This document shows positions 1,842 to 55,071 of a stretch of DNA of 64,000 nt, in pieces (the first letter of the stretch is position 1; every line of letters begins with the position of its first letter). Made by a program: the position numbers and the translations under genes. Location: NCBI GenBank assembly GCA_009760855.2, contig WPIO01000088.1:106001-170000 (forward strand), read 5' to 3'. The stretch is from Cristatella mucedo (taxonomy: Eukaryota; Bryozoa; Phylactolaemata; Cristatellidae). The notes under the pieces are model-generated. The model saw only the letters and a program-made list of their open reading frames with translations. It did not search any database and was not told the origin of the DNA.

Positions 1842-2084
1842 TCGGTCTCTGCAAACAAGTGCCGTTCACCAGTTCGTAGTCATCGTGACAGCGACACCTA
1901 GCATCCATTGTGGTGCCGCACGGAGAGTCTTCCACCATTTTGTCCGTAGCTCTCGAGTATATCCGGCAGGCTTTGCACTGCCGCTCACGACTTCTTTCGT
2001 CCATGTAGGTGCCCGGACTGCAGGGATAACACCATCCTCTGGCTGACGTTTGGTCGGGCGGCGGGGTATCGCTGAAATAGTGTC
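1842..2084 (-). CDS. TNF-receptor-like gene C, cysteine-rich domain exon (gene runs off the left edge)
   Basis: A 243-nt, phase 1-1 exon with acceptor ttttcag and donor GTAAGT, nearly identical to the gene A CRD exon (WCYPCSPGTY, SPCGTT, CRC). The third Cys of the CKACRIC motif is Tyr here (CKACRIY), which would leave one disulphide partner unpaired. The donor region is partly duplicated at about 1790-1815. Downstream exons would lie beyond position 1, and I could not find an exon 1 in the 5 kb upstream. It may be a living gene with an altered fold or a decaying copy. Confidence 0.7.
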
Positions 2085-2176
2085 CTGAAAAAGTATGCGT
2101 CGGAACTTCTCTGACAACTGCTTCTGGCTACGTGCTGTGGGACGCACGCAAGAGTGGAGAAATTGGGACCTGCACG

Positions 2177-54000: not shown

Positions 54001-55071
54001 GGTAAATACACCCTTATCGAACTTATCGAAGACACTGAAAAGCCAAGCTGCAGACCAGATGTCAGAAATTTAGTAAAAAGCGAATTATTAATTATCAAGT
54101 CAAAATCTTGGATTAATCTTCACAGTACTTTAATTCTCAATCCCTGAGTGAAAAGAAATAAAATGGGAAGGCTTAGAGAGCTGTGTTTAATAATTCCTGA
54201 TTAATTAATCATTTAATTTTATACTTTTTAGATGTACTAATAATAATAATGGCAATAACTGATGAACCGATCGCCTTGCCAGACTGCCAAAATGAGCAAT
54301 CTTTTGATTTTAGATTGTCTGCGATGTCCATCTTCTGATGTCCATGGATAGTCGTTGTCAGTCTGCGGCTGTTTTAAAAACATGGTCTATAAAAATAAAC
54401 ATATTTAATTTTACGCAGTTTAAATTGTATCAAACCCCCCTTTCCCCAATTAAAAAGACGTAAAACAGTCTGCTTATAATTTAGTTAGCCTAGGTAATTT
54501 TTTTAAATAGTTCAAGATACAACGATAAAGTACTTGACAGCAGATTTTAAAGTTCAAGGACGTTAAAGACACGTTTAGCAGTACTCATATAACCAAAATC
54601 AGAAATGAATCGCTGCAGTTTAACCGAGGACAGCTAAACATGCATTATAAATTTCACGTTGATCCTTTTAGCATTAGCCAAGTTATATAGTTTACAAGGT
54701 TCGAAGAAGAGCTGTTAATCGGGCTGCTTAAAGGGCAGTGGCATGGACAAGCTGCCGACCTGTATCTAGATGTACCAAGGCTGAGCAAGTTGGAACATTA
54801 GCCATATCTGATGGTGAAATTGCTACGTTTGTATCTTCAGATGTGTTTCTTGCGGTTTACTTTTCGGGCTCGACTTGATGTGCACATTCATTTATTGCTT
54901 TTCCTTTAAACGGAAATCCTCAAAAACTTTTGAAATCATTTCTAAAAGGGTTTATCACATAGGCACCCTAAGCAAATATCATATTTTGCCAATTCGTTTA
55001 CTACTTACTTAACCTTTACTCATAACGAGAACCATCGTCAACGATATCGGCACAAACAACAATCGCAACAT
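44663..55071 (-). CDS. TNF-receptor-like membrane protein, gene A (five exons)
   Basis: Inferred single-pass type I receptor of the TNFR superfamily. The join on the minus strand is 55071-55014, 53764-53522, 48930-48763, 47447-47324, 45059-44663. Exon sizes 58, 243, 168, 124 and 397 nt sum to 990 nt, giving 329 residues and a stop. Intron phases are 1, 1, 1, 2 and agree at every junction, and no junction makes a stop. Predicted order: signal peptide 1-19, CRD exon about 20-100, Ser/Thr-rich stalk about 101-156, membrane span about 170-192, then a run of four arginines and a tail to 329. All five exons recur in the same order in gene B. Introns hold L2 and SINE insertions. Exon 1 is the least certain part, and extra skipped exons cannot be excluded. 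The ligand is unknown, and no death domain is seen. Confidence 0.7.
45240..46364 (-). pseudogene. Unassigned conserved block in intron 4 (copy A), with LINE-like piece
   Basis: 46014-46364 reads SLDTLTDAINECFSHSL, the equivalent of the gene B block at 21730-21984. 45639-45857 has MIRTVNHFLLN and SIADKFSVFLVNK, resembling the L2 RT N-terminal region (MSTINHLLN, DLADRFSRFFVQK). Degraded old retroelement sequence is the best guess. Confidence 0.45.
46380..46880. other. Intron DNA, no gene seen
   Basis: Includes an AT-rich stretch 46490-46580 and a short stretch (GACTGATTTTCGTTTGCTCA) resembling 22460-22570 in gene B. Confidence 0.4.
46880..47225 (+). mobile_element. L2 LINE 3' end in gene A intron 4
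   Basis: CCTGGAACTCACTCCCGACT, the UTR, then the tail and (TTA)n. It ends about 100 bp before the transmembrane exon's donor. Confidence 0.85.
47324..47447 (-). CDS. Gene A exon 4, transmembrane segment
   Basis: The 124-nt exon enters in phase 1 and leaves in phase 2, between an acceptor ending atttcaag and the donor GTAAAT. It encodes a short acidic linker and then a span of about 22 hydrophobic residues beginning PLMLILVSVVTASV and ending TIY. The next exon opens with four Arg and a Lys, a classical stop-transfer anchor for type I topology. An in-frame TAA lies within the donor, so reading through the intron would stop the protein right after the membrane. Confidence 0.75.
47605..47855 (-). 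mobile_element. L2b LINE C-terminal remnant in gene A intron 3
   Basis: The minus-strand frame reads VTDCGIRFRHSY...FLDCPPES, matching the L2b C-terminus at 41280-41410. Paralogous to 23105-23340. Confidence 0.55.
47903..48012. repeat. (TA)n and (GA)n microsatellite
   Basis: TA then GA dinucleotides with interruptions. Confidence 0.92.
48120..48290 (+). mobile_element. SINE2, tRNA-derived
   Basis: GATCGTGGGTTCGAAAC (B box) and GGTTCTTCTGTCGCTATACA. Confidence 0.7.
48763..48930 (-). CDS. Gene A exon 3, Ser/Thr-rich stalk
   Basis: The 168-nt, phase 1-1 exon lies between an acceptor ending ttattttgtag and the donor GTAAGA. The first half is mildly hydrophobic (AISVLSTTASTIAISF). The second half is rich in Ser, Thr and Pro, as expected of an O-glycosylated juxtamembrane stalk. 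The gene B copy (25657-25818) has identical splice phases, a near-identical acceptor and the shared motif TIAISF. No known domain is recognised, and the stalk role rests on its position between the CRD and the membrane span. Confidence 0.72.
48960..49724. other. Gene A intron 2, no gene seen
   Basis: No repeat or exon recognised. The 73-codon frame at 49489-49710 has no support. Confidence 0.4.
49725..49868 (-). mobile_element. SINE2-like, degraded
   Basis: CACTGCAGGATTCGAAC-like B-box complement (GCAGGATTCAAACCCATGAC) and a head ending CATCCTGGGCAATCACGG. Confidence 0.5.
49870..50865. other. Gene A intron 2, no gene seen
   Basis: Contains a GATGGATGA-type imperfect repeat (about 50360-50490: GGATGACTG/GGATGACGAACG). 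Nothing coding recognised. Confidence 0.4.
50870..52220 (+). mobile_element. L2 LINE, 5'-truncated, two frame breaks
   Basis: Encodes VNGQRSSEVPLKYGVPQDSV, FHFYVDDTQLYLCFD (YADD changed to YVDD) and the C-terminus, with a frameshift near 51470 and a stop near 51680. The tail and TTATTA end near 52220. It sits in gene A intron 2, which accounts for part of that intron's extra length over gene B. Confidence 0.88.
52440..52765 (+). mobile_element. LINE 3' fragment, divergent
   Basis: The frame YLQTHLFITALAGS resembles the L2 C-terminus ([13 protein letters not shown]), followed by a tail-like GAGACTCGTTCTCTTAACGC. Confidence 0.5.
53200..53372 (-). mobile_element. SINE2, tRNA-derived
   Basis: Inverted tail (GACAAAGAGCCTTAACGGCT) and B-box complement GCAGGATTCGAAAGCACAAC. 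Confidence 0.7.
53395..53490 (+). mobile_element. L2 LINE tail
   Basis: AAGCGCCTAGAAAGATATAT, GAGGGCGCTTTATCAAGTG and (TTA)n, 32 bp from the CRD exon donor of gene A. Confidence 0.85.
53522..53764 (-). CDS. Gene A exon 2, TNFR cysteine-rich domain
   Basis: The 243-nt, phase 1-1 exon lies between an acceptor ending ttttttcag and the donor GTAAGT. The cysteine pattern is WCYPCSPGTY, then CKACRIC about 11 residues on, SPCGTT, CRC and a final C. This is the TNFR layout of a short A-type module followed by a B-type module, as in osteoprotegerin-class repeats, so it is expected to be extracellular and disulphide-bonded. It is much closer to the gene C copy (about 7 changes in 80 residues) than to gene B. 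An L2 tail (53395-53490) sits in the intron just after the donor. Confidence 0.82.
53865..55010. other. Gene A intron 1 and nearby AT-rich DNA
   Basis: From 54245 on it aligns with 28990 onward in gene B (ATGGCAA...CTGATGAA...GATCG). This links the two duplicated units between exon 1 and the CRD exon. No further exon seen. Confidence 0.5.
55014..55071 (-). CDS. Gene A exon 1, signal peptide
   Basis: Starts ATG-TTG and encodes 19 residues plus one base, with a hydrophobic core reading LLFVPISLTMVLVM, then donor GTTAAG. It ends in phase 1, as the CRD exon requires. The paralogous exon at 29305-29362 has the same length, the same frame and a similar hydrophobic core. The frame stays open upstream to another ATG at 55170, but that stretch is not conserved in protein between the copies, so I chose the inner Met. 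The donor is weaker than those of the other exons. The transcription start and 5' UTR are not determinable. Confidence 0.5.

Follow-up and report, generated by a model that had tools for sequence, protein, structure and literature searches.

A tandem pair of genes for TNF receptor-like proteins and a third, related cysteine-rich exon in the bryozoan Cristatella mucedo

Do regularly spaced cysteine-rich exons in the genome of the bryozoan Cristatella mucedo mark a tandem array of genes for members of the tumour necrosis factor receptor (TNFR) superfamily and, if so, do these genes appear functional, and how are the copies related to one another? We analyzed a window of 64,000 nucleotides from this genome (GenBank assembly GCA_009760855.2, contig WPIO01000088.1, positions 106,001 to 170,000 of the forward strand; all coordinates below are those of the window), in which a first-pass annotation had placed three exons coding for a cysteine-rich domain (CRD) on the minus strand, at 53764, 28166 and 2084, that is, 25.6 and 26.1 kb apart. 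The three exons were found at these places, with starts separated by 25,598 and 26,082 bases. Two of them belong to the only complete genes in the window, here denoted C (55071-44663) and B (29362-19319), and the sequence supports the view that these are tandem genes for TNFR-like receptors, spaced by about 26 kb. The third, denoted copy A, is only partly in the window, where it consists of a single CRD exon and a homologous intron. In our judgment, B and C are probably tandem paralogs coding for small type I receptors of the TNFR superfamily, in which the CRD would bind a ligand and signalling would proceed via short motifs in the tail, with copy A as a third paralog that carries a converted exon.

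Organization and coding status of genes B and C

Genes B and C contain five exons each, with the same exon order and the same intron phases (1, 1, 1, 2), and in both, the CRD exon is followed by stalk, membrane and tail exons exactly as previously claimed (Table 1). All exon junctions are of the GT-AG type, no stop codon appears at any join, and the joined frames are open over 329 residues in C and 326 residues in B when the longer form of exon 1 is used. The spliced proteins are 51% identical and share the same succession of parts, namely, a signal peptide, a single TNFR-type CRD, a stalk rich in serine and threonine (18 of the 70 residues from the stalk exon to the membrane in B and 25 of 75 in C), one membrane helix and a tail of 131-144 amino acids. 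Hydropathy analysis yields a single-pass type I layout with a signal peptide, given the hydrophobic run in exon 1 and the one membrane helix, and both proteins contain a basic juxtamembrane stretch, RRRRK. The position of the stop codon is aligned between the two genes, and AATAAA occurs twice in each case, in gene B at +278 and +833, in gene C at +105 and +289.

The contention of the first-pass annotation that the open joins are unlikely to be due to chance is borne out by two comparisons. In nucleotide alignments of the five exon pairs made with MAFFT, each of the seven gaps between B and C is a multiple of three (27; 3 and 3; 15; 3, 30 and 12 nucleotides), compared to 10 of the 57 gaps in nine aligned flanking blocks (Fisher p=3e-5). 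Moreover, in a simulation of neutral decay of gene C, stop-free copies numbered 7 of 20,000 at 0.33 substitutions per site and 226 of 20,000 at 0.16, a test that is generous because the exons had been picked for being open. On these features, B and C look like real genes. The alternative, under which B, C and A are decaying duplicates of once-functional TNFR-like genes that drift neutrally, appears unlikely to us: it would be in keeping with the loss of a CRD cysteine in copy A, with the membrane exon being just 63/109 identical between B and C, and with the ratio of nonsynonymous to synonymous substitution rates (dN/dS), which is 0.71 for B and C overall and about 1.0 in the CRD core, but it is at odds with gaps that keep the frame in the exons and mostly not outside, with the retention of splice sites and the stop codon in both genes, and with the rarity of stop-free survival in the simulation, even if exons chosen as open enter that count. 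By region, the B-C ratio is 0.48 for the signal peptide, 0.76 for the CRD exon, 0.59 for the stalk, 0.88 for the membrane exon and 0.76 for the tail; over the 62-codon core of the CRD, it reaches 1.04, with 1.28 for A and B over the same core, and for A and C, it is 0.34 over the exon.

Among the potential membrane exons with good splice sites, there is a single helix in the right phase per gene. Between the stalk and tail exons, there are 210 open AG-GT stretches of 60-200 nucleotides with phases 1 to 2 in B and 72 in C; a membrane-like run is contained in 4 and 7 of these, respectively, of which 2 and 3 combine a GTRA donor with a pyrimidine-rich acceptor (8 or more pyrimidines in 13 positions). 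In each gene, these last candidates amount to the same helix in nested versions. Conserved blocks between the membrane and tail exons were considered as additional exons and dismissed because most of the gaps there are not multiples of three.

In each gene, exon 1 has two potential donors, GTAAAG and, six bases further on, a weak GTTAAG (C) or GTTCAG (B), both of which give phase 1. The GTAAAG donor fits the consensus better, so exon 1 more likely ends at 55020 and 29311 than at 55014 and 29305, which makes the B and C proteins two residues shorter; the 58-nucleotide form was used for the Pfam scan, the single-sequence search, the identity values, the homologue search, dN/dS, and the gap and neutral-decay statistics. 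In the approximately 3 kb that precede the CRD exon, each gene has one other hydrophobic ATG exon candidate (28744-28699 in B and 54331-54238 in C); the peptides of these two are unlike, and the one from B aligns elsewhere in C (54010-53975).

Table 1. Coordinates of the predicted exons, the homologous intron and the tandem units in the window
Feature	Position	Strand	Remarks
Gene C exon 1, start codon and signal peptide	55020..55071	-	52 nucleotides, donor GTAAAG; alternative end 55014, donor GTTAAG; least secure exon
Gene C exon 2, CRD	53522..53764	-	TNFR_c6 29.1 bits, E 1.3e-6 (cut-off 29.4 bits)
Gene C exon 3, Ser/Thr-rich stalk	48763..48930	-	
Gene C exon 4, membrane helix	47324..47447	-	
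Gene C exon 5, cytoplasmic tail and stop codon	44663..45059	-	YEDP motif
Gene B exon 1, start codon and signal peptide	29311..29362	-	52 nucleotides, donor GTAAAG; alternative end 29305, donor GTTCAG; least secure exon
Gene B exon 2, CRD	27951..28166	-	TNFR_c6 30.8 bits, E 3.9e-7, above cut-off (29.4 bits)
Gene B exon 3, stalk	25657..25818	-	
Gene B exon 4, membrane helix	22707..22815	-	
Gene B exon 5, cytoplasmic tail and stop codon	19319..19754	-	YEDP motif
Copy A CRD exon	1842..2084	-	Intact splice sites; tyrosine in place of one CRD cysteine; TNFR_c6 24.4 bits, E 3.9e-5, below cut-off
Copy A upstream intron, homologous to gene B intron 1	2085..2451	-	Local alignment score 144, null maximum 39 in 300 shuffles; blastn block 2216-2353, likewise offset by 26.1 kb
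Tandem unit with gene B	11131..38498		Limits set by the outermost blocks colinear with unit C; approximate, several end blocks overlap dispersed repeats
Tandem unit with gene C	39480..61412		Limits set by the outermost blocks colinear with unit B; approximate

The two genes reside in head-to-tail paralogous units with colinear flanks, the colinear blocks being offset by approximately 23-28 kb and the units meeting near 38.5-39.5 kb. The tandem array of TNFR-like units of about 26 kb that was proposed originally stands for B and C; copy A is represented in the window by one exon and an intron rather than by a whole unit. Duplication between haplotypes or a copy produced by assembly was discarded as an explanation of the two units because their colinear blocks are just about 66-82% identical. 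A fragment of a long interspersed nuclear element (LINE) is found at matching places upstream of both first exons (29951-30107 and 55628-55823), so its insertion probably predates the duplication that gave rise to B and C.

Several other repeats are scattered over the window. LINE reverse-transcriptase pieces are present at 8020-9975 (minus strand) and 50910-51488 (plus strand), both with an RVT_1 domain, and at 257-1461 (plus strand), the latter with 88% DNA identity to the first; among the 120 relatives listed for the largest of these reverse transcriptases, one reaches 76% identity across 67% of the query, and the rest are 42-50% identical. A dispersed repeat, apparently the LINE 3' end, occurs in both orientations (for example, at 7781-8118, 13651-13970, 20618-20962, 46886-47223, 52149-52233 and 63098-63426), and another dispersed family, whose copies are about 110-170 bases long (14216-14389, 33903-34035, 34581-34746, 61831-61995 and 63776-63943), may, by our guess, be a tRNA-derived short interspersed nuclear element. 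ARAGORN detected no tRNA in the window, and an Rfam scan at the gathering threshold was empty. Upstream of gene C, a GC-rich (58%) stretch includes a GGCGGC repeat of period 6/21 at 59619-59745.

The cysteine-rich domain and the cytoplasmic tail

TNFR_c6 is the top Pfam family for each of the three CRDs, and the score of B exceeds the curated cut-off (Table 1). When a profile of the three CRDs was compared to PDB sequences, 26 matches were obtained up to an E-value of 10, of which 23, including the best 22, are TNFR-superfamily chains (one of these is a CD160-HVEM fusion); the three remaining matches comprise two lectin chains and one ubiquitin transferase. The best hits were to DcR3 (E=1.9e-4), RANK (4.9e-4) and HVEM (0.0095), and a search with a single sequence retrieved RANK (0.018) and HVEM (0.042), so that the match to TNFRs expected from the first-pass annotation is present in profile searches. 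It is improbable, in our view, that B and C encode CRD-bearing membrane proteins other than TNF receptors, in which the cysteine module serves another ligand, although the CRD scores are close to the threshold and CRDs of the TNFR type are also reported from choanoflagellates, bacteria and plants, that is, from organisms other than animals (PMC4979521). When the open stretches of the window were scanned in six frames with the three-CRD profile, no fourth CRD was detected, the next match having an E-value of 1.5. The ectodomains of B and C each contain nine cysteines, all of them encoded by the CRD exon, and this number is odd; conceivably, the unpaired cysteine could link two receptors covalently.

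The tails of B and C align in frame, with 53% identity and shared blocks such as HFYEDP and YIYSC. Among ten short patterns tried, YEDP is the sole site found in both tails and is a candidate phosphotyrosine site for SH2 binding. No death domain was identified in B or C among Pfam matches up to E 10, a search in which the HMMER filters drop most weak matches; the tail of gene C, when scanned by itself, had no Pfam match at E 0.1, and neither tail had an NCBIfam match at E 1, NCBIfam being empty for all five exon proteins scanned. These negative results, a short tail that matches no known family and the lack of a TRAF motif common to B and C would suit decoy or accessory receptors that act as sinks for TNF-family ligands or as co-receptors without signalling of their own. 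This possibility is worth considering but doubtful: a pure decoy would not need a tail that keeps its frame and its conserved blocks. Under the explanation that we favour, that of signalling receptors, the CRD would most likely bind a TNF-family ligand, or another protein, and clustering of the receptors would transmit a signal through the short tail motifs rather than through a death domain.

Several observations run counter to the interpretation of B and C as functional receptors of this superfamily. Exon 1 was recognized solely by hydrophobicity, phase and shared place. The CRD of C falls just below the Pfam cut-off and that of A further below, leaving only B above it. The structure model obtained for the CRD is poor (predicted local distance difference test score 43.6, predicted template modelling score 0.26). 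With an overall dN/dS of 0.71 and a value close to 1 for the CRD core of B and C, the constraint on the two genes is apparently weak or mixed with diversification. The TRAF-like motifs APEE and PEEDDH are present in the C tail only, with none in B. Furthermore, no homologous protein was found at E<=0.01 for the spliced B and C proteins among the 7,996 scored candidates sharing most words, or for the three CRDs among nine candidates, in a database that includes animal proteins (UniRef fish entries) and with a procedure by which relatives without shared five-residue words or of other length would be missed. Related loci were not confirmed among 31 and 96 pattern matches in viral contigs or among 145 in bacterial and archaeal genomes, an absence that is expected for an animal gene.

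Copy A and the history of the CRD exon

In copy A, the fourth cysteine of the TNFR_c6 match is missing (CRIC is changed to CRIY) and, because of this loss of a conserved residue, the copy may be decaying. Insertion of a lone exon does not account for it, given that homology to the intron of B extends past the exon. Between 2451 and 11 kb, upstream of copy A, only short or dispersed-repeat matches were seen, and of the five candidates listed for its exon 1, at two places upstream, none is homologous to exon 1 of B or C.

The CRD exons of A and C are 94% identical (14 of 243 bases differ), but their nearby flanks are only about 63% identical (85 of 134 columns), and it is this near identity of the exons, not shared by the flanks, that suggests gene conversion between A and C. 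In the three-way alignment of the exon (215 gap-free columns), 48 differences are specific to B, 4 to A and 4 to C, with one three-letter column, as opposed to 15, 27 and 10, with 12 three-letter columns, in the 134 columns of the nearby flanks (p=1.6e-9). In addition, the comparison of A with C yields 6 differences in 51.3 silent sites of the exon as against 49 in 134 flank columns (p=0.001), and no such contrast between silent sites and flanks exists for B and C (p=0.70). Fast change of B alone was rejected, as it fails to account for the low silent divergence of A and C. What fits these data best is a conversion between A and C restricted to about the CRD exon, with breakpoints that, judged by eye, would fall near the exon edges, at about 2071 and 1836 in A, so that A, a third paralog lying partly outside the window, probably exchanged this exon with C. 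Conversion is not the sole reading of the exon similarity, and some of the data tell against it: between A and B, too, silent sites of the exon have diverged less than the flank, albeit with a milder contrast (p=0.02), and the flanks conflict as to which copies are closest. Beside the exon, A is the most different, whereas further up intron 1, the A-B alignment score (144) far exceeds those for B-C (42, a value reached by 3 of 300 shuffles) and A-C (51). Because of this conflict, we assign no branching order to A, B and C.

The CRD exon is symmetrical, with phase 1 on both sides. A bolder, and quite unlikely, scenario holds that this is a lineage-specific system in which tandem, death-domain-free TNFR-like genes with a single CRD swap the ligand-binding exon by conversion and retain conserved, tyrosine-based tails, perhaps forming a locally diversifying cluster for immune recognition. 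If so, the symmetrical phase-1 exon would make such swaps safe for the reading frame. In the literature, a search for TNFRs with exon gene conversion and related wording returned nothing fitting by title among the matches listed.

Known receptors and implications

The single-pass layout of B and C is shared by the arthropod TNF receptors Wengen and Grindelwald. Like the genes described here, these receptors have one CRD (PMC6684607). The likeness is one of layout; the B and C tail, with its YEDP site and YIYSC end, had no match in the Pfam and NCBIfam scans or in the homologue search described above. Vertebrate DcR3 (6B), RANK (11A), HVEM (14) and DR5 (10B), the best PDB matches, have the same CRD cysteine spacing as B and C, but each of them contains several CRDs as opposed to one; DR5, furthermore, possesses a death domain, a type of domain that was not found in B and C. 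Receptors that lack a death domain are not without parallel in invertebrates: oyster TNFRs come with and without death domains (PMC4346834), and CRD proteins without a death domain are reported from sponges, ctenophores and choanoflagellates (PMC4979521), the resemblance to B and C being one of layout. Large invertebrate TNFR families are already known: PMC12843592 cites 40 TNFR-superfamily genes for Acropora digitifera and 36 for Branchiostoma floridae. The role of invertebrate TNFRs without a death domain and the ligands of invertebrate TNFRs are named as open questions in PMC4979521. With its intact tandem pair and a third copy that shares one exon, this locus of C. mucedo is a compact place in which to follow the evolution of a ligand-binding exon relative to the rest of the receptor.
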